DNA from: a virus
Reading direction: 5' to 3' (one strand)
Virus record (IMG/VR): IMGVR_UViG_3300005095_000171
Location: 1 to 29,683 of that record
Length of the DNA: 29,683 bases
The position numbers and the translations under genes are program-made. Position 1 is the stretch's first letter. The number at the start of each line of letters is the position of its first letter. Under the pieces are notes generated by a model, which saw nothing but the letters and a program-made list of their open reading frames with translations, made no database searches and was not told the DNA's origin. Below are positions 12 through 29,625 of the stretch, one piece after another.

Positions 12-50
12 AAAAAAAAAAAAAAAATAAGACACTCACAAGGAGTGCCT
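12..50 (-). terminator. Rho-independent terminator after the RNA polymerase gene
   Basis: Read leftward, a 7-bp stem (GGCACTC / GAGTGTC, one G-U pair, arms at 43-49 and 31-37) with a 5-nt loop is followed by TTA and a run of about 15 T (complement of the A run at 12-27). It starts about 9 bases past the polymerase stop codon. Stem plus long T tract is the classic intrinsic terminator layout, so leftward transcription of this module probably ends here. Confidence 0.85.
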
Positions 51-58
51 ATTGAACC

Positions 59-1840
59 CTACATGATTGCAGGGTTGTGGAGTGGAAGCTCACGATCTGG
101 GATCGTGAACTCAGCTTTGATGCCAGTCTGAGCTTGAATTTTCTCAAACTCAGCCTTGTACCAGCCGGTTAGATCTTCCAATCCCTGATTAACGATCTTG
201 CGAATGACTGGCACAAGTGCCGGTCGGCAATATACAGCATCCAACGTAGTCTTGACTTGCAAGTCAGCGTCGAACATGTGTCGCTCTACCTTACGCATCA
301 GATAGCCATCAGAGCCATGGGCTACCTGTACGGCAAGCCCTGAGACTTTCTTCTCGCCTTCAAGCCCTTGTGTGAAGGGCATAATGGCGTGGATCGCAAG
401 ATCCGACAACTCAAGTCCGACGCGACAGTTCTTGATGTATGGATTCCATACCATCATCAAGCCATCGAAGGCTTCGTACGTTATGTAAGGCACTCCTGCA
501 AAAGCACATTTAATACCGTACTCAGCGATTTGACGAATAAGATGATAACGCTCACCAAATACACTATTAACAATATCAATGAGCTCATCATCGACACGAC
601 CGCCATGATGAGGAGCAACAAACACCTTTTTAGCATCATCTCTACCGATGCCAAGAGCATCAGCAACAGCTTGGTGAAAGTCTCCTTTTGTTCCAAGGAG
701 ACCAGCACCATTCATCCACTTGCGGTCGCCAAATTGGTTGGCGTACATAGTTGGACCGCTGGCAGAGATGTCGACGCCAATTAATGCATTTGTCACGCCT
801 CCCTCATTGTATATTATGCTATTACAGATCTCTTGGATCCATAAATATTTGCCAAATGTCTTGGAGTCAATATTCCAAGTTACTTTACGACCAGCCTCGA
901 AAACTTTGTTCAGGCGACGTGCCTTTTCAATCTCTTTCGAAGCCTTTTCAAAGAGTTTACGCCAAGATTTTACCTTGAACTCAGATTTGAGAAAAGCTTT
1001 CGCAAGTTTAATATCATCTTTTGTAACTCTATAGAAATAGGTTGTTTGTATCAACCACTTCTCAAAGGAGTCGCCATGCTCCTTTGCAAATCCAAAGAAT
1101 GGCACAGGATAATGTCTTCCAGCGCCATCGAATTTCCTAATGTTCTGGTAGGTCATCCCAGCGTGAGCTATGGTTACACTAGCAAACGATTCGAGCTCCT
1201 TGAGGTACTTCGATGGGGAATATTTAACATTCCCAACGTTCTCGCTGAACTTCATGTTAGCATAGGTATATACTAAGTCATGGTCGATTTCTCTAACCAT
1301 GAATTCCTGCTGAGAAAGCATATTCAAATGCTTCTCTCTCACGCTACAATGGATTTGCTTTTTGGAGCCCTTCATGATGTACACAGACTCGTACGTCTCG
1401 GGTAATCGAGCATATTCAGGCTCAGAGTACTCGCCTTCAGAGGCGTTGGAGTAGTATTTGGTCTCTCTGCTCGTTAAGTTCCCTTGGTCATCAAAGTACT
1501 TAACGACCTTGGTGGACCAAGGAATGCAGTTTTCAATGATAGTTCCAACAACAGAAATCATTGATTTCTTAAACATATTTGAACCGTCGTTGATAGACTG
1601 GAATTCAGGCTGAAACAACATCTTGTCAACCACTTTACCCGCTAACTCATCAATCAGTGGGTGTGATTGAACCAATTTGTTGGCAGTCTCAATCACCTCG
1701 TCAATATCAAGAATAGGAGCAATCTGTTGAACATGGCTACTCATACTTATTGGGAAATCGTAAGAGCTCAACAATGCAACGATCTCGCTTGTATTAAGTA
1801 CCGCGTTTGTAGAGTTTGTGTTTGTGTTTGTGTTTTTCAT
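59..1840 (-). CDS. Compact single-subunit (T7-family) DNA-directed RNA polymerase
   Basis: 593-aa protein. The start is the ATG at 1840, preceded by AAAGGA at good spacing; a longer frame opens at 1873 but has no ribosome site. Hallmarks of single-subunit RNA polymerases are visible: a DxxGR motif (D238-R242, in FDGAGRHYPVPFFG), motif A with D357-x-S-x-SG (like T7 DGSCSG, D537), and motif B R400-x3-K404-x7-H412-G413, the exact spacing of T7 R627, K631, Y639, G640. A motif-C candidate is H508-GS-D511. The DxxGR to motif A distance (119) matches T7 (116). The protein is much shorter than T7 RNAP (883 aa): the N-terminal part is about 180 residues shorter, and the A-B and B-C intervals are also contracted. 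It should transcribe phage genes in the infected cell. The His in place of the sugar-selecting Tyr and the altered motif C are odd. The assignment rests on motifs, not on a database search. The N-terminus carries an Asn-Thr repeat encoded by a 6-bp microsatellite. Confidence 0.82.
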   Translation of the reverse strand: MKNTNTNTNSTNAVLNTSEIVALLSSYDFPISMSSHVQQIAPILDIDEVIETANKLVQSHPLIDELAGKVVDKMLFQPEFQSINDGSNMFKKSMISVVGTIIENCIPWSTKVVKYFDDQGNLTSRETKYYSNASEGEYSEPEYARLPETYESVYIMKGSKKQIHCSVREKHLNMLSQQEFMVREIDHDLVYTYANMKFSENVGNVKYSPSKYLKELESFASVTIAHAGMTYQNIRKFDGAGRHYPVPFFGFAKEHGDSFEKWLIQTTYFYRVTKDDIKLAKAFLKSEFKVKSWRKLFEKASKEIEKARRLNKVFEAGRKVTWNIDSKTFGKYLWIQEICNSIIYNEGGVTNALIGVDISASGPTMYANQFGDRKWMNGAGLLGTKGDFHQAVADALGIGRDDAKKVFVAPHHGGRVDDELIDIVNSVFGERYHLIRQIAEYGIKCAFAGVPYITYEAFDGLMMVWNPYIKNCRVGLELSDLAIHAIMPFTQGLEGEKKVSGLAVQVAHGSDGYLMRKVERHMFDADLQVKTTLDAVYCRPALVPVIRKIVNQGLEDLTGWYKAEFEKIQAQTGIKAEFTIPDRELPLHNPAIM

Positions 1841-1994: not shown

Positions 1995-2678
1995 CTAGAA
2001 GAAGACTTTGTCTAATGCATCTTTAGGGAGAGGTTTCTCCCCATTAATTCTCCTCTTTGCTTCTAAGATGAGGTTGCTTGGTATATCCAACAATATATTG
2101 TTGGACACCCTTATCAACTCCCTCAACCCATTCTCGAGGATCATAACCTCTAGGGTTTTGGGTTCCTGAGAAAACGATGCAAGGAACCCGAAGTTCCCTT
2201 CGTCTATATTAGACAAATCTTCGCTCAAGTATTGAACGCAGGCAAGTTGCCCTGCCTGCATGTGGAGAGAACTTCCAAACTCTTTCTTGGCTTTCGCCAA
2301 AGCTCTAGATAATTTAAGTTCCATAACATCTTCCCTCACCTGAGGAAACTTTTGGATTAAGTCGAGTTTTAACTCTAGCAATTTATCCAATTTGGGTTTT
2401 AAACCCAAGGCCATATTTTGTATGGCAAGTTGCTGCTCGGTTGTCAGCTTGGCGGTCAGAACCGCGCCCAACTGGACGTCGTCCAGCGACTTGAAAAACT
2501 CTGGCGTATTTTCTATTCTCTCTGGAATAGAGTCTTTAAATATTCTGGAGATCGCCTTTGCAGACAACCCAAGTTCGTTGACCAGAACTCCAAACTCTGA
2601 TCCAATCACTGCTCGCTTTTTAGCTTCAGATGGGTTAGAGGTGCTTGCTGAGTTAGTTCCGAAAGTAATTGTTGCCAT
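1995..2678 (-). CDS. Hypothetical protein, 227 aa
   Basis: The start ATG at 2678 is preceded by AAAGGA with 6-bp spacing. I do not recognise the family. The protein is mostly predicted alpha-helical, with a charged Leu/Lys-rich stretch (about residues 95-140, for example LDKLLELKLDL) that could form a coiled coil. There is no signal peptide or membrane segment and no Cys-rich motif. It lies between two non-coding regulatory stretches and is the gene just upstream of the RNA polymerase. Two copies of the 18-bp promoter-like element (2791-2808 and 3008-3025) point into it. The position suggests an early, non-structural gene, possibly a transcription or replication accessory, but nothing in the sequence proves this. 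Confidence 0.75.
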   Translation of the reverse strand: MATITFGTNSASTSNPSEAKKRAVIGSEFGVLVNELGLSAKAISRIFKDSIPERIENTPEFFKSLDDVQLGAVLTAKLTTEQQLAIQNMALGLKPKLDKLLELKLDLIQKFPQVREDVMELKLSRALAKAKKEFGSSLHMQAGQLACVQYLSEDLSNIDEGNFGFLASFSQEPKTLEVMILENGLRELIRVSNNILLDIPSNLILEAKRRINGEKPLPKDALDKVFF

Positions 2679-2790: not shown

Positions 2791-2808
2791 CAATACTACC
2801 AATATCAA
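2791..2808 (-). promoter_or_regulatory. 18-bp promoter-like element, copy 1
   Basis: Reads TTGATATTGGTAGTATTG leftward and is identical over 18 bp to the element at 3801-3818. It lies about 110 bp before the start of the 227-aa gene. The bases just after it are GG, then a region able to form GCTCA-TCTT-TGAGC. The length, the conserved block and the G at the 3' end resemble promoters of T7-type polymerases. It does not show a normal sigma-70 -35/-10 pair. The promoter role is an inference. Confidence 0.5.
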
Positions 2809-2939: not shown

Positions 2940-3010
2940 TTGGGTTTACGCAAAGCCCGAAACTGTGGGATTTGAACGGCATTAGAGTGCATTGGTTCAA
3001 GTAAACCCAA
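2940..3010 (-). ncRNA. Three-way-junction-like structured leader RNA
   Basis: A perfect 10-bp inverted repeat (TTGGGTTTAC at 2940-2949, GTAAACCCAA at 3001-3010) encloses two inner inverted repeats: TTGAAC/GTTCAA with an inner GCA/TGC pairing (2972-3000) and CAAAGCCC/GGGATTTG (about 2950-2974, 7 of 8 paired, slightly overlapping the other helix). In the leftward transcript this forms a closing stem with two arms. It begins immediately after the promoter-like element at 3008-3025, so it would be the very 5' end of that transcript. It is not a tRNA: there is no CCA, no anticodon arm and no T arm. Its function may be RNA stability or a cis-regulatory element. Confidence 0.5.
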
Positions 3011-3025
3011 TAGTACAGATATCAA
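3008..3025 (-). promoter_or_regulatory. 18-bp promoter-like element, copy 2 (15 of 18)
   Basis: Reads TTGATATCTGTACTATTG leftward; it differs at three positions from the two identical copies at 2791-2808 and 3801-3818. The next bases are GG, so a transcript would begin GGG and enter the structured leader at 2940-3010 at once. It points toward the 227-aa gene and the RNA polymerase. Confidence 0.45.
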
Positions 3026-3291
3026 GAAAGTTGAGTCTGTCGCACTAAACAACATTTAGTCTGCAGTACATAAGGCAAGCAGTGTGTGAGGTGACATGTT
3101 GCGCAAGACCAGCCAGAACCAACTGGACAGACGTGCGCGTGAGTGTGACGTGTACTGCGTGATACATACTGAGTGGAGTGCGTGCTTGACTGAGTATGCT
3201 TGGTGTGCTTGTGTGTGCTTTGGAGGACTGCATTGGTTCTGGTGTGCTTGCGGGAGTTTGAATGCGACTTCCCTTGACCCATTATCGATGG

Positions 3292-3800: not shown

Positions 3801-3818
3801 CAATACTACCAATATCAA
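3801..3818 (-). promoter_or_regulatory. 18-bp promoter-like element, copy 3
   Basis: Identical over 18 bp to 2791-2808 (TTGATATTGGTAGTATTG, read leftward). It sits about 40 bp before the 134-aa gene and directly before a UUCG hairpin. An exact 18-mer shared by two upstream regions, with a 15/18 third copy, is unlikely by chance. A phage-polymerase promoter is the simplest reading; a regulator-binding site is the alternative. Confidence 0.55.
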
Positions 3819-4199
3819 TAACTGTGATGTGTTCCTTGTTCTTGTCCATGCTGCATGATGCTGTATGGCTTTGTATACTTGTGTGCGTTGGTTGGTTCTC
3901 GTATGTCTGTGTGTCTGCTGTGTGTGCGGAGTATTCCTTTGTGTATGGCTGGTGTGTGTGCTTGGTTCTGGTGTGTATGAGGATGTTGCCTTGTGTGTGT
4001 CTGGTTGTGTGCGTATGCTTGTGCCTGCTGCGTGTATGTTGCTGTATGCCTGTGTGCATGAGTGTGCATGCTTGCTGTTGTTGTGTGCATGCTGTTGCTG
4101 TGCTTGTTTGCAGCATACGGGGGGTATGTTTGCAGGTTTTTGGATTTTGTTTTGCGCATCTACACTTGTCCCCCCGGGGTTTACCAGAACCAGTTTAGG

Positions 4200-4405: not shown

Positions 4406-4894
4406 ATGAAACCAGAGAAAGGATTAGCCATATTTCATAATGCATTTAGAAAAGGATCTAAGTGGTATGAATGGGTAACTGGAGTAGTTACTTTTGGAAG
4501 ATACAGTCATGTGGAGGTGTTTACGCTAGATAGAACCAAGACTCTCTACGTTTCTGCGCACGCGAATGGAGCAATTTTAAAGGACAGGAATATAGAGGAT
4601 TTAGATATAGATAATGAGTGGGATGCTGTTGAGTTTGATATTGACAGCGGACTAACAGAAAGGATATATCAGACAGTAGAGGAACATAAGGGCAAAGGGT
4701 ATGATTATGCTGGTGCATATCTGTCTGTACTGCCTTTCATAGACTGGTTCTGTAACAACGACAAGGTTTTCTGTTCTGAGGCGGTTCACGAGGCAATATA
4801 TGGAGAGGCTAACTCGTGCAATTACTCACCTCAGAGGCTGTTTGAAAAGATAATAAGAAGAAACAACGGAAAAATACTTAAAAGCCTCAAGTAA
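4406..4894 (+). CDS. Permuted NlpC/P60 (YiiX/YaeF-like) papain-fold hydrolase
   Basis: 162 aa; ATG preceded by AAAGGAC. The order of motifs fits permuted papain-fold amidases or peptidases: a His in YSHVEVF (H35) comes first and the nucleophile Cys in KVFCSEAV (C123) later, with GYDYAGAYLSVLPF between them. The C-terminal part around YSPQRLFEKI is also usual for this group. There is no signal peptide. It is the first gene of the rightward module, just before the terminase genes, so it could be a virion-associated cell-wall hydrolase, a peptidase, or an enzyme acting on lipid- or peptide-linked host targets. The fold is fairly sure; the substrate is unknown. Its stop codon lies within the left arm of a long inverted repeat. 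Confidence 0.7.
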   Translation: MKPEKGLAIFHNAFRKGSKWYEWVTGVVTFGRYSHVEVFTLDRTKTLYVSAHANGAILKDRNIEDLDIDNEWDAVEFDIDSGLTERIYQTVEEHKGKGYDYAGAYLSVLPFIDWFCNNDKVFCSEAVHEAIYGEANSCNYSPQRLFEKIIRRNNGKILKSLK

Positions 4895-5841: not shown

Positions 5842-5940
5842 ATGATTTTAAGTGACCCAAAGGGAATTCCGAGAACAAAAGTCATTGAAGCATACTTTTG
5901 CTATAATACAGTACAGATTAATAAATGGAGTGTGCAATGA
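5842..5940 (+). CDS. Possible 32-aa small protein
   Basis: Short frame MILSDPKGIPRTKVIEAYFC... with AAGGA eight bases before the ATG. Its stop overlaps the start of the endonuclease gene (ATGA). It may be a real tiny gene, a leader peptide, or a remnant of sequence brought in or broken when the endonuclease inserted. Nothing in its sequence is recognised. Confidence 0.3.
   Translation: MILSDPKGIPRTKVIEAYFCYNTVQINKWSVQ
5899..5907 (+). promoter_or_regulatory. Candidate extended -10 promoter before the homing endonuclease
   Basis: TGCTATAAT is a perfect extended -10 (TGn plus TATAAT), 30 bp before the endonuclease ATG. A good -35 at 17 bp is not evident, which extended -10 promoters tolerate. 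This would give the mobile endonuclease its own host-polymerase transcription, as is common for free-standing phage endonucleases. Confidence 0.45.
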
Positions 5941-6950
5941 AAAAGAAAAAAATGTTTAGTGTAGGACATAGAGTAAATAGGTTGTCATACATTGAGGAAG
6001 ACATAGATATGTCAACAAAGCGAAAAAGACGTTTTGTAAAGCTTTTGTGCGACTGCGGAAATACGAAATCAATATACTGTTATCATTGGACATCAGGAAA
6101 AACAAAGTCGTGTGGATGCCTAGGAAAAGAAGCATGCTCATTAATGGCAAGGAACAGGAGCACAAATAAACTCAGAGATAAAGACAGGGATGAGATGGTT
6201 ATAATGTGGAAAGATGGGCTATCTACTGGTGAGATAGCAGATAAATTTAAAGTTACTAGCTCAAGTGTGTTAAGTGCTCTAAGGACAAGGGGGTACGATA
6301 CGGACGGAAGGGTTCGTGATAATGGAATGATATCCAATCATAATGCTTTTGATACACAAACAGAGGAAGCAGATTACTGGGGAGGTTATATAGCATGTGA
6401 CGGATACATATCGAGAAAAGGACAGATTTCGCTTACATCGAAAGACTATGAACATATAGTAAAATTTAAATCGTTTGTAGGATCAAAAAACAAAATACTT
6501 GTTGACGGCAGGAATGGATCAACATCATTTACGTTGTCAATAACATCAAAAAAAATATTAGATGTGCTATTGAAAAAATATGGATTACATAACAACAAAA
6601 CATACACATACAGTGTTCCTATTTTGGTATCCAACAATACTGCATTCTGGAGAGGATGCGTTGATGCGGATGGCTGGTTCTCAAAGCAAGAGATAGGATT
6701 GGCGGGAACGCTTGATAAATGTGAGAAATTTATGTCGTTTGTACAAAGCGAAATAGGCATAAAAATGAGATTGAAAAAAAAGAAACTTACGCATATCAAT
6801 GGGTATTCTTATGCTGCAATATCAACAAGACAAAGTGACATTTTAAGAATATTGAACATGTTGTATGATAATGCAAGAATATTCCTAAGTAGAAAATATG
6901 AAAAGTATATTACAATAACCAAGCACAAAGGTGAGCATTATGATATATAA
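5937..6950 (+). CDS. Free-standing LAGLIDADG homing endonuclease with zinc-finger and HTH domains
   Basis: 337 aa from the ATG at 5937, six bases after GGAG. Three parts are visible. First is an N-terminal Cys4 module (C38, C40, C59, C61 in LLCDCG and SCGCLG), of the kind seen in phage HNH/AP2-type endonucleases. Second is a helix-turn-helix (about 86-120, GLSTGEIADKFKVTSSSV). Third are two LAGLIDADG motifs, YWGGYIACDGYI (catalytic D155) and FWRGCVDADGWF (D245). It probably cuts a specific site in phage DNA lacking the gene and spreads by repair. It lies between the probable small terminase and the large terminase and overlaps the latter by 11 bp. The terminase reading frame itself is not interrupted, so this is not an intein. 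Family assignment is firm; target is unknown. Confidence 0.88.
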   Translation: MKKKKMFSVGHRVNRLSYIEEDIDMSTKRKRRFVKLLCDCGNTKSIYCYHWTSGKTKSCGCLGKEACSLMARNRSTNKLRDKDRDEMVIMWKDGLSTGEIADKFKVTSSSVLSALRTRGYDTDGRVRDNGMISNHNAFDTQTEEADYWGGYIACDGYISRKGQISLTSKDYEHIVKFKSFVGSKNKILVDGRNGSTSFTLSITSKKILDVLLKKYGLHNNKTYTYSVPILVSNNTAFWRGCVDADGWFSKQEIGLAGTLDKCEKFMSFVQSEIGIKMRLKKKKLTHINGYSYAAISTRQSDILRILNMLYDNARIFLSRKYEKYITITKHKGEHYDI

Positions 6951-8847
6951 AGATGTTATTCCTAGATCAAAAGAAGAGATGCGGCACGCCATAAACACTG
7001 GGTATATTATACCTGCATTCAAAGACAAAGATGAGATAACCGTTGAGATGCTACTAGACTATGTAGACTTAAAATTAGATTGGTATACGCCGTCGGTAAA
7101 CGCAATCATGTTTATTTCGTTTATTCGTTTGTGCATAGGAGAAGAGCCAGAAAACCTAAACCCAAAAGCTCATTACTTTTTTGTTGACTGCATGTTTCAG
7201 TCAGAGGAGGTTAGGCCATACTATCAAGTAAGAAATATGGACTTTGATACGCTAAAAGGGAATACGCTGATATTGTCAACTAGGGAATTTTCAAAATCAA
7301 CGATTCTTGCATACATGATTTTGTACATGGCTGATCAAGGAGAGATGCCAGGATTTGGAAAAGTTAACTTTGGCATGTATGTGTCTGACAGAATGGACGG
7401 TAACGTTAAGACAACAATGAGAACGATAGAGGATCTCTATCTTGGATCAAAATACCTGCAAAGCAGGTTTGAGTGGACTCACTTCACTGATGCAGCAGTC
7501 GAGATGATACGAAAGCCGAGAACCAAGCAAGAAATAAAAGCATACAATGACCACATGTCAAAGAAAGGCGCAAGAGAAGATGGCGTCCCTGGTAGAATGA
7601 AGCGAAGATTTAAGGTGCAAGGTCTAGGGTCATCTGGTGGTAGGGGATCAAGATCTGGACTAGACAGACCACAGTTTGCAATCTTCGACGACATGGTAGC
7701 AAATGAAAAGGATGCATATTCAAAGGCTATGCTTGCAGCTATTGATAGTACTATTGAAGCAGACGTTGGTTCATCGCTATCTGGAGAGGGTCACTTCAAA
7801 GTGCTAATTGGGACAGCGTATCACACAGGAGATCCTGTATATAAAAGAGTAACAGAGGGAACATATTTACCTGTTGTATTTCCAAAGGCCGAAGTACAGC
7901 CACATGGAGATATATATGATGAAAAAACAGGAAAGCTTATAAAGCCTGCAATGACAAAAGAAAAATTTGTTTCAGTATGGCCAGATAGACATACATTTGA
8001 GAAGCAAAGAAAAGAGTATGAAATTGCAGAAAGAGCCGCAAAAAGAGGAAATACTAACAAGCTAAAAACACTAGATCAAGAGTACTATGTTAGGGTAACT
8101 TCTGAGCACGAAAGACTAATACAGGATAAGCATATACGGTGGGTCGACATGCAGAAAATAAAGGATAATGCTCAACTGTATACATGGTACGTGACAACAG
8201 ACTACACAACAACAGCAAATAAAGGGTCAGACTTGAGTCCTCAGATATTATGGGCTGTAGATTGGAATGATAAATGGTATCTTGTTGACATCATTGCTAG
8301 AAAGCAAACAATACAAGAACAATATGGTTCTACATTCAAGTTCACTAGAAAGGCAAAAGGATGGGGGGCATATATTGTTGAGGTTGGTGTCGAGATAGAC
8401 GGACAACAAGTTTTGCACCTAAACGGTTTACAGAGATTCTATGACGACAATGGAGACACGCTGATATTTGCAAGGCAGAAGCCTGTTCCAGGAAAGACAG
8501 TCACATGGGATGGAATAAAATCAAAAGGTAGTGGAGATAAGCTGTGGAGACTTCACATGGTTGCAGAGAAGTTTTATGAAGGAAAAATTTTTTTCAACAA
8601 CGAGTTAAAAGACTATAATCAGGATATGGCAGAGCTATTAAATGAGCTAAAAATGACTACAGGAACAGAAATTAAAGCAAAACATGATGATGCGCTAGAT
8701 GCATTAAGTCAGATGGGGCTAATAGACATATTGATCCCACAAAAGCCTGTCAAAGAGCAAATGCGATATAATAATGTAACATACGACCCTGTCTACATGT
8801 CTCATATTGACAGCAGTGAAGAGGAGGGTTACGGATATTACAATTAA
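6940..8847 (+). CDS. terL: Terminase large subunit (packaging ATPase/nuclease)
   Basis: 635 aa from the ATG at 6940; AGGTGAG lies just upstream (a GTG at 6931 is the alternative). The ATPase half has a Walker A-like loop STREFSKST (113-121, lacking the usual GK), Walker B FAIFDD (D250, D251) and the coupling motif LIGTAYH (289-295). The nuclease half has D421 in VTTDYTTT, E481 in IVEVGVE and the C-terminal HDDALDALSQ (D583, D584), a RNase H-like catalytic set. Length suits the family. It pumps DNA into procapsids through the portal and cuts concatemers. It overlaps the upstream homing endonuclease. The portal is unusually far downstream (27193). Confidence 0.93.
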   Translation: MIYKDVIPRSKEEMRHAINTGYIIPAFKDKDEITVEMLLDYVDLKLDWYTPSVNAIMFISFIRLCIGEEPENLNPKAHYFFVDCMFQSEEVRPYYQVRNMDFDTLKGNTLILSTREFSKSTILAYMILYMADQGEMPGFGKVNFGMYVSDRMDGNVKTTMRTIEDLYLGSKYLQSRFEWTHFTDAAVEMIRKPRTKQEIKAYNDHMSKKGAREDGVPGRMKRRFKVQGLGSSGGRGSRSGLDRPQFAIFDDMVANEKDAYSKAMLAAIDSTIEADVGSSLSGEGHFKVLIGTAYHTGDPVYKRVTEGTYLPVVFPKAEVQPHGDIYDEKTGKLIKPAMTKEKFVSVWPDRHTFEKQRKEYEIAERAAKRGNTNKLKTLDQEYYVRVTSEHERLIQDKHIRWVDMQKIKDNAQLYTWYVTTDYTTTANKGSDLSPQILWAVDWNDKWYLVDIIARKQTIQEQYGSTFKFTRKAKGWGAYIVEVGVEIDGQQVLHLNGLQRFYDDNGDTLIFARQKPVPGKTVTWDGIKSKGSGDKLWRLHMVAEKFYEGKIFFNNELKDYNQDMAELLNELKMTTGTEIKAKHDDALDALSQMGLIDILIPQKPVKEQMRYNNVTYDPVYMSHIDSSEEEGYGYYN

Positions 8848-26896: not shown

Positions 26897-27196
26897 ATGA
26901 CAGACGAAGTGTATGGGTACATTCCAGAAGAATTATATCCAGGTCAAAGCAAAGAAATCGTCATAACTGTTCCAGACAACTATTCTAGCGATACACACAC
27001 AATATCACTATTAATAGAGAGTGCATACACAAGGTGTGTTATAATGTCTGGTATAAAGGTTGATAGCGACACATATATTGTTTCGCCAGACTTGTCAAGT
27101 AAATTACTTGGTGAATACTATTTTGTTTTTACTATAGTAGAGAATGAGAACAAGTTCACATCAATAGACAAAGTTTACGTAAAGGTTAAGAGATGA
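26897..27196 (+). CDS. Small beta-sandwich protein, 99 aa
   Basis: AAAAAAAGGA before the ATG. The pattern YPGQSKEIVITVPDN, YIVSPDLSSKLLGEYYFVFT and KVYVKVKR suggests an Ig-like or BppU-N-like small beta domain. No enzyme motif. It shares an ATGA overlap with the portal gene, so the two are translationally coupled; a virion or assembly role is likely. Confidence 0.65.
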   Translation: MTDEVYGYIPEELYPGQSKEIVITVPDNYSSDTHTISLLIESAYTRCVIMSGIKVDSDTYIVSPDLSSKLLGEYYFVFTIVENENKFTSIDKVYVKVKR

Positions 27197-29625
27197 GTGG
27201 TGAATGGAAAAATAAACCAAGTATATCTGATTTAAAAGCAGATTTTGACTCAGCAAATGCATCGCATTTAAGGCAAATAGATAGATTGGATCTATACAAT
27301 GAAATCTATGACGAAACAACTCCGAACGAACAAAAAACGTTTCTAAAGAGATTAAGGTCAACATACAAAAGTAGACTGTTCAAGAAAATGATGGAGTGGG
27401 TTGTTCCCAACATAGAGAATCCAGTGTTATCAAAAAAGACACTTTTTACGTTGTCGCCTAAAAGCAATTCTGCAATAACTGTGCTAGATAAAAACGCAAG
27501 CATATTGAACCATCAATGGAACAAGGAAATTGGTAAAGTTGAGCTTGTAAATAAAGCTGTAAGAAACTTTGCAATAGAGGGTACATGCGTGCTTAAAGTT
27601 GGATGGAAAACTGAAACAAAAATAGAAACAGTTGTTCAGCAGCAAACGGTTTTTACATCAGATATATCAGAGATTAACAGTATATTGGAGAAGGCGTCGG
27701 TGAACCAGGAGCTATATACAAAGCTTAAGCAGCAGTATGAAGCAACAGGAATGCTACCATCTGGTTCTATCGACGTTGAATGCGAAGTTGAAACCGTTAT
27801 CGAAAATAGGCCATATTTAACAGTAAGAGATAACAGAGCAATAATTGTTGATCCGTCAGCAAAGGGAGTTCTTGACAATGTTAGATTTGTTATTGATATA
27901 CAAGAGACAGATTACTCAACTCTTTCAAAAAACGATTCATATTTTAATCTTGATTATGTGAAAGAGTATATAAAAAACAAATCAGGAGTTGGGTCAAATG
28001 ATTATAATCTTGCAACATATACAGACTACGACGAAGATGATTTGTTTGAGTTTTCTGATCTTGCAAGAAAGAAAATAACAATATATGAATACTGGGGATA
28101 CTGGGATATAAATGGCGATAACAACCTGGTTCCAATTGTTGCATCATGGGTAGGAAATAAGCTTATTAGGCTTGAAGAGAATCCATATCCTCACCAAAAG
28201 ATTCCTTATGTGTTTGCGCAGTTCAATCCTCTGAAAGACGAGATATGGGGAGAGCCGTACGCAACACTATTGGAGAACGATCAAAAATCTCTAACTGCTA
28301 CATATAGAGCAATGGAAGATATTACTAACGAGAATGCTGTTGGGCAAGAGTTCATAGACGATAGCATATTTAAAACACCAATACAGAAAGAAAACTATGA
28401 GAAAGGTAAAACAGTATACGTAAACAGAGGAACGGACCTAAGCAAAGCTATTATGAGAAAGTCTGTTGAGCCAGTGCCTAAGGTACTGTTTGATATGAAG
28501 GGAATATATACTGAACACTCAACTCTACTTACAGGAATAGAGGACATGGATGGAGGAGCTGGTTCAAGAATGACACAGTCTGTTACAGGTGCTCCAATGA
28601 AAGTAGATGCAAAGACAAACAGAGAGATGGAAGTCCTCAGAAGGTTTTTGACAATGCTTGAAAACGCAGGAAACCTAATACTGTCGATGAACAAAGAGTA
28701 CTTGCTTGATACAGCGATATACGACACTGGTTCAGGATACCAAGAGATAAATGATGTAGACACATTAAATGACGACTTCTCTGTATCTGTTGACGTATCA
28801 ACTCCAACAATAGACAATGATAAAGCGTCAAAGATAATGTTCCTAATGCACAACAATGGCGCAAATATGTCTCCACAACTTGCAGCACTGCATTATGCAA
28901 AAACAGCTGAGCTATGGAATATGCCAGATCTTGCAAAAACAGTTCTTGATGAAGCAAATAGACCACCATCAGAAGAGCAGGCACTCGCACAGCAACTAGA
29001 ACTAGAAAGACTAAAACTAGAAAACAAGAAGGCACAAATAGAGTTACTTGCAAAAATAAAAGAAATGGAATTCAAAGACGCAAAAATAGAAGAGATAAAA
29101 GAATCTATCATTGCTGGTTCACAAGAAGCAAGAGTTATCAGAGACAAATCTCAAGCCGAACTTGCACTTGCACAAGCAGATAAGATGGATGCGCAAGTCA
29201 GACTATTTAATCAAGAGTTTGAGCTTGTTGAAAGCGGAACGAAAAGAGAATGGGAAAAAGAAGATAATGAATTCCATCACCTAGCAAACCTTGAGAGAGA
29301 GGAAGTGAGAACCAAGAGAGAGCAGGAGAATATTAAGCTTAAAGAAGAAAAGAAGAATAAAGATGACATGACTACAAAAGAGAAAAATCTTGAGTACATA
29401 CGAAGGGGGACTCTTGAGAACGACACCTACGATGCAGCGGACGATATATTCAGGAACATACTCGATAAAAACAGTATAGACACTGAGCAGTACAAAAAGG
29501 ATCTTCCGTCAATGCAGCGAATGCCAAGTGTCAGACAGCCAATGAAAGATCCAGACGTAAAAAGCACTATTGCACCAGAAGACATGATTGGTGAAGATAA
29601 GCCAATAGACGATACAATAAAATAA
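27193..29625 (+). CDS. Portal protein (P22/N4-like), 810 aa
   Basis: Starts in the ATGA overlap; AAGG upstream. The core fits podovirus portals: an N-terminal helical part (HLRQIDRLDLYNEIYDE), VRNFAIEGTCVLKVGW, YWGYWDINGDNN, HQKIPYVFAQFNPLKDEIWG, EPYATLLENDQKSLTATYRA and TLLTGIEDMDGG. The last about 200 residues are a long charged helical region with many E, K and L (LELERLKLENKKAQIELLAK), like the helical barrel of P22 portal. It forms the dodecameric DNA gate on which the terminase docks. It contains one 11-mer CTGGTTCACAA. It lies 18 kb from the terminase, an unusual separation. Confidence 0.85.
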   Translation: MSGEWKNKPSISDLKADFDSANASHLRQIDRLDLYNEIYDETTPNEQKTFLKRLRSTYKSRLFKKMMEWVVPNIENPVLSKKTLFTLSPKSNSAITVLDKNASILNHQWNKEIGKVELVNKAVRNFAIEGTCVLKVGWKTETKIETVVQQQTVFTSDISEINSILEKASVNQELYTKLKQQYEATGMLPSGSIDVECEVETVIENRPYLTVRDNRAIIVDPSAKGVLDNVRFVIDIQETDYSTLSKNDSYFNLDYVKEYIKNKSGVGSNDYNLATYTDYDEDDLFEFSDLARKKITIYEYWGYWDINGDNNLVPIVASWVGNKLIRLEENPYPHQKIPYVFAQFNPLKDEIWGEPYATLLENDQKSLTATYRAMEDITNENAVGQEFIDDSIFKTPIQKENYEKGKTVYVNRGTDLSKAIMRKSVEPVPKVLFDMKGIYTEHSTLLTGIEDMDGGAGSRMTQSVTGAPMKVDAKTNREMEVLRRFLTMLENAGNLILSMNKEYLLDTAIYDTGSGYQEINDVDTLNDDFSVSVDVSTPTIDNDKASKIMFLMHNNGANMSPQLAALHYAKTAELWNMPDLAKTVLDEANRPPSEEQALAQQLELERLKLENKKAQIELLAKIKEMEFKDAKIEEIKESIIAGSQEARVIRDKSQAELALAQADKMDAQVRLFNQEFELVESGTKREWEKEDNEFHHLANLEREEVRTKREQENIKLKEEKKNKDDMTTKEKNLEYIRRGTLENDTYDAADDIFRNILDKNSIDTEQYKKDLPSMQRMPSVRQPMKDPDVKSTIAPEDMIGEDKPIDDTIK

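Follow-up and report, generated by a model that had tools for sequence, protein, structure and literature searches.

A divergent single-chain N4-RNAPII-like RNA polymerase predicted in a fragment of an N4-like phage

The locus and its phage context

The window analyzed here, an IMG/VR stretch of 29,683 bases taken at its full length, is, judged by its sequence, part of the genome of a divergent phage of the N4-like group (Schitoviridae). It encodes a predicted single-chain RNA polymerase (RNAP) in a leftward cluster that points away from the terminase and the late genes, which are read rightward. The features of the locus are as follows.

30..50, minus strand: terminator-like hairpin (8 pairs, 4 GC) and T-run, directly 3' of the RNAP stop codon
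59..1840, minus strand: predicted single-chain N4-RNAPII-like RNA polymerase, 593 aa (ORF, profile match at E=1.8e-11, alignment, fold search)
1995..2678, minus strand: 227-aa gene 5' of the RNAP gene in the same leftward cluster, without known relatives (ORF and searches)
2791..2808, minus strand: 18-nt repeat TTGATATTGGTAGTATTG 5' of leftward genes, candidate promoter or operator (repeat search)
6931..8847, plus strand: terminase large subunit, N4-like (profile and homology searches)
27193..29625, plus strand: portal protein, N4 gp59-like (profile and homology searches)

The phage is placed near the Schitoviridae because its terminase is N4-like; terminase and portal have hundreds of matches in that family, at about 28-30% identity. 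The window terminase is without an insert, and an endonuclease gene (5925-6950) overlaps its start. Intein-like inserts occur in the terminases of two related contigs, at two different conserved sites (L007:8560-9570 and L005:8840-10010).

The RNAP gene is a single uninterrupted ORF with its ATG at 1840, preceded within a few bases by AAGGAT, which resembles a ribosome-binding site. The original prediction from the sequence had its position and length right, and left the strand unstated. The region holds 13 terminator-like sites, as compared to 3.6 in shuffles. The search that yielded the 18-nt repeat gave four sites (chance, 0.04), with further minus-strand copies at 3801-3818 (exact) and 3008-3025 (3 mismatches); the repeat was not found in the related loci that were searched for it. 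A reading of the repeat as a hairpin of the N4 early promoter type was set aside by eye, there being no stem common to all copies. Unusual GT-rich stretches, apparently non-coding, lie at 3060-3290 and 3830-4140, between the leftward early-type and the rightward late genes. That the 227-aa gene might be a lost gp15-like half of the polymerase was considered and rejected, since the RNAP has all motifs and the gene is without any match.

Evidence for an N4-RNAPII-like polymerase

The kin of the window protein were reached through weak tblastn matches to two Alteromonas phages, vB_AmeP_PT11-V19 and vB_AmeP-R22Y (hereafter V19 and R22Y), and through terminase and portal neighbors. A profile of the RNAPs of N4, PT15-A5, Littlefix, L103, V19 and R22Y, built without the window protein, matched the window ORF at E=1.8e-11, whereas 500 shuffled versions of the protein reached 0.41 at best and no other window ORF did better than 0.41; the match is therefore above chance. 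A profile of V19 and R22Y only matched the protein at 9e-7 and one of the N4 group only at E=0.1, and BLASTP against the V19 RNAP gave 1e-8. The window protein was not seen by a profile of the L007-type family only, a group of RNAPs found in related uncultured phages and described below. Direct searches of Pfam, PHROGs and the PDB with the protein matched nothing, and scans of IMG/VR with it, with V19 and with their alignment found no relatives. In the profile search that had been proposed as a check, PF00940 gave no match at its cut-off; 16 L007-type relatives did not match PF00940 either, and V19 matches it only below the cut-off.

A structure was predicted with AlphaFold2 on a 17-sequence alignment that included RNAP relatives. 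The model has low confidence (mean pLDDT 51.6, pTM 0.52; a large part of the catalytic half reaches 60-79) and has a palm-fingers-thumb fold nearest to those of RNAPs. In a Foldseek search of the PDB, ranks 1-39 were all single-subunit RNAPs (POLRMT, 4.6e-6; T7, 7.8e-6) and the first DNA polymerase, Pol theta, stood at rank 40; a fold search of a viral library also placed phage RNA polymerases first. Since the model is weak and RNAPs were present in its alignment, this result is support and not proof. The model of the L007 relative (pLDDT 90.1, pTM 0.85) matches the folds of T7 and mitochondrial RNAPs. A profile of the 17 proteins had N4 RNAPII as its best PDB match (6dt7_B, 4.4e-7).

The motifs were placed with MAFFT L-INS-i in an alignment of 32 sequences: the window protein, T7 RNAP, N4 gp15+gp16, two other Schitoviridae pairs, V19, R22Y and a further 25 RNAPs that this analysis identified. 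All catalytic positions are filled in the window protein.

1115..1129, minus strand: DxxGR motif, DGAGR, residues 238-242, aligned with T7 D421-R425
755..772, minus strand: motif A, DISASG, residues 357-362, with catalytic D357 and with Gly362 at T7 G542
602..643, minus strand: motif B, RDDAKKVFVAPHHG, residues 400-413, with K404 at T7 K631 and H412 at T7 Y639
308..319, minus strand: HxxD motif, HGSD, residues 508-511, aligned with T7 H784-D787
239..244, minus strand: true motif C, LD, residues 533-534, at T7 H811-D812

The DxxGR, motif A (D357) and motif B assignments of the original prediction line up with T7, N4 and the remaining RNAPs of the alignment: D238/R242 fall on T7 D421/R425, D357 on D537, and R400/K404/H412/G413 on R627/K631/Y639/G640. 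Its motif C, H508-GS-D511, was misplaced, for H508/D511 align with T7 H784-SQ-D787. Motif C instead reads LDAV, in which L533/D534 correspond to T7 H811/D812, so that the His is replaced by Leu533 and the catalytic Asp, D534, is kept. The prediction had staked itself on D357, K404 and D511 occupying catalytic positions; the first two do so, and the third position belongs to D534. The distance from motif B to motif C, formerly given as 98 residues (T7 172), accordingly becomes 134 (T7 185 by the same count).

T7 Y639 helps to select ribose, and the alignment bears out the predicted replacement of this Tyr by His, which V19 (H435) and R22Y (H433) have in common with the window protein. The motif C His is also replaced elsewhere, by Tyr in L122 and by Phe in L123; thus, neither the motif B nor the motif C change is unique. 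In Pol A enzymes, a Glu that acts as a steric gate stands five residues past the motif A Asp, at the position of T7 G542. The presence of Gly362 there in place of the Glu argues for the use of rNTPs.

The proportions of the protein are close to those of N4 RNAPII. There are 237 residues before DxxGR in the window protein, 235 in N4 RNAPII and 420 in T7, so that the N-terminal part is indeed about 180 residues shorter than in T7, as was first noted. The distance from motif A to the T7 R627 position is 43 residues, again as noted, compared to 59 in N4 and 90 in T7 (A-to-B distances in relatives of N4 RNAPII are 33-53), and that from motif B to HxxD is 108, compared to 111 and 157. The compactness that had caught attention is that of N4 RNAPII, and a short N-terminus and A-to-B stretch are usual for that enzyme and its relatives; of the supposed unusual build there remain the single chain and His at the Y639 position, the latter common to V19 and R22Y. 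N4 RNAPII itself has been called rather minimal and among the smallest of its family (2015 review, PMC4496689). It resembles the window enzyme in proportions, motif order and its N4-like phage, but consists of two polypeptides of 673 aa in total (gp15+gp16; PDB 6dt7, 6dt8, 6dta), split after DxxGR where the window enzyme is unsplit, and it keeps the motif B Tyr and the motif C His. T7 RNAP (883 aa) shares the catalytic residues and overall fold, but is 290 residues longer, with the N-terminal domain and a complete specificity loop among the extra parts, and is factor independent. Profile match, alignment and fold search together support the idea of a minimal single-subunit RNA polymerase, and by its sequence the window protein is a genuine N4-RNAPII-like RNA polymerase, one-chain and highly divergent, with predicted activity.

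Relatives, gene exchange and division into pieces

The nearest kin of the window RNAP are the single-chain RNAPs of V19 (WAK44711.1, 670 aa) and R22Y (667 aa). The window enzyme groups with them in trees (98/98), on a very long branch (3.0) that leaves its exact position unsure. With V19 and R22Y removed, it remains with N4 and T7, apart from the L007 type (100/99), and an AU test gave a borderline result (p=0.056) against a tree that unites it with the L007 type. The two Alteromonas enzymes share with it the single chain, His at T7 Y639, Gly at G542, a motif B of the form RDDAKK/RKDAKK-HGG and an N4-like phage context. They differ in having SxxGR rather than DxxGR, a normal HD motif C, a B-to-C stretch longer by 45 residues and a total length greater by 75, and identity to the window protein is about 20%.

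Contigs with terminases 58-64% identical to that of the window (L007, L005) carry a different single-chain RNAP at the same leftward position; L004, a terminase relative at 71%, is too short to reach the RNAP region. The enzymes of L007 and L005 share 38% identity, and BLAST of the window protein against that of L007 gave E=0.08, no usable match. The syntenic L007 gene was dropped as a simple orthologue, the L007-type profile being blind to the window protein. Because phages with closely related terminases have an RNAP of another clade at this locus, the RNAP gene has probably been exchanged there between related phages. The L007-type RNAPs, from uncultured N4-like phages and AD45, resemble the window enzyme in being compact (571-676 aa) and in occupying the same locus in close terminase relatives; unlike it, they form a separate clade, are single-chain or split, and have Tyr at Y639 and a bulky residue at G542. 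Throughout this clade (L111-L136 and L007) the residue at T7 G542 is M, V, I, L or N, as against Gly in T7, N4, V19 and the window protein. The parts of the L007-type and AD45 RNAPs correspond to PHROGs 27203, 22493 and 22720, which are listed as of unknown function.

Division of the polymerase varies among these loci. The enzyme is a single chain in 19 of 26 L007-type loci from IMG/VR (571-676 aa) and is encoded by two ORFs in the other 7. In six of the seven split loci the break lies 30-31 residues past the Asp of DxxGR (33 in N4); in the remaining one, L118, it lies at 7 residues, and L118 is sister to a one-chain enzyme (99/96). At least two different split points occur, and on the tree the enzyme must have switched between one-chain and split forms no fewer than four times. 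N4-type pieces in L100 and L102, as against L101 and L104, apparently stop past motif A or begin shortly before motif B, a possible third split position. In the Alteromonas phage AD45-P1 (L110:2677-6040) the RNAP is spread over three ORFs, gp044, gp046 and gp048, each annotated as a hypothetical protein. The last break there is a group I intron (RF00028, E=4.5e-13, 4545-4799) with a GIY-YIG gene, and it lies in the conserved H784 motif, at the codon of an active-site His that is itself conserved.

The virion RNA polymerase (vRNAP) was sought by PHROG profile (phrog_2206), which found it in 20 of 22 related and control records; a query with one N4 sequence found it in 2 of 22 and was too insensitive. 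It is not in the window, a 29.7-kb fragment too short to show vRNAP or cofactors, with the early region outside. By the profile, vRNAP and one-chain RNAP occur together in 12 records, namely 10 contigs, V19 and R22Y; the pairing in R22Y is also described in PMC11705849. The match in V19 and in one contig is limited to the C-terminal part. In the contigs of L116, L120, L123, L128, L130 and L134 the vRNAP matches fall in two ORFs, of about 2,500 and 1,300-1,450 aa, and in several relatives the C-terminal part of vRNAP seems, from these sequences, to be a separate protein.

A 2015 review states that all but two of the species with a vRNAP have a heterodimeric RNAP, gp16 being split in those two, and finds it unclear how the heterodimer arose and what advantage it brings (PMC4496689); three RNA polymerase genes are counted in the description of the Schitoviridae (PMC7650795). 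The records that hold both a one-chain RNAP and a vRNAP go against the near-universal heterodimer of the 2015 review. Because there are 12 such records, with two-chain and intron-broken versions among their kin, the question of splitting or fusion, and with it that of how the two-piece form arose, is now open to tests by comparison and by simple fusion and splitting experiments. Candidates for a minimal RNA polymerase are the window protein, at 593 aa, and relatives as short as 571 aa, all below the 673-aa N4 enzyme.

Proposed function and alternative readings

We consider it highly probable that the observations are best explained jointly by a one-chain N4-RNAPII-like RNAP that would depend on a helper to start and would serve middle genes, and by exchange of the RNAP gene at its locus. 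The analysis suggests that the window enzyme is most likely a middle-gene RNA polymerase that needs a helper for promoter finding. It would be made early or midway in infection from the leftward gene cluster, and would join rNTPs by the usual two-metal mechanism through D357 and D534. Apparently having no N-terminal promoter-binding domain of the T7 type, it would start on melted AT-rich DNA, aided by a phage ssDNA-binding factor of the gp2 type, as does N4 RNAPII, and would then transcribe the middle (replication) genes. Helper-aided start on melted sites is proposed because the T7 domain seems to be missing and because of what is reported for the family: N4 RNAPII works on and binds ssDNA, and needs gp2 and probably gp1 too (PMC4496689). 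A different way of finding promoters, as originally proposed, is thus plausible relative to T7 but is not new, since it would equal the factor-dependent mode of N4 RNAPII.

A more far-reaching reading, which we regard as rather unlikely, is that the enzymes of the window, V19 and R22Y make up a separate lineage of minimal one-chain RNAPs, in which the His at Y639, facing the kept H784 partner and Gly542, would alter sugar or base selection (for example, toward mixed ribo/deoxy or modified nucleotides) and the fused state would be ancestral to the N4 heterodimer. Less probable still is an autonomous RNAP in the style of T7 that recognizes its own duplex promoter without helper proteins. The single chain is like that of T7, and the 18-nt repeat 5' of the leftward genes could be such a promoter; however, the N-terminal domain is about 180 residues short of that in T7, the part of the chain in which T7 has its specificity loop is reduced (108 residues from motif B to HxxD, compared to 157), and N4 RNAPII, of equal proportions, needs gp2 (PMC4496689).

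We give somewhat less weight again to a decayed or repurposed protein of polymerase fold that has no RNA polymerase activity. The change of motif C His to Leu, that of motif B Tyr to His and the very long branch would fit decay, but D357, K404, D534, R242, G413 and H508 are all kept in an open and intact frame, the motif C His is changed in L122 and L123 as well, and V19 and R22Y share the motif B His. The least probable reading, and a very improbable one, is that of a DNA polymerase or, as originally proposed, of a branch lying between the DNA and RNA polymerases: His does replace the ribose-selecting Tyr of T7, and the fold is common with Pol A (Pol theta at rank 40), but Gly occupies the steric-gate position at +5 in motif A, DxxGR stands where Pol A has TxxGR, no DNA_pol_A profile matches, the fold matches RNAPs first, and the sequence relatives are all RNAPs, with the window enzyme on the N4/T7 side of the tree.
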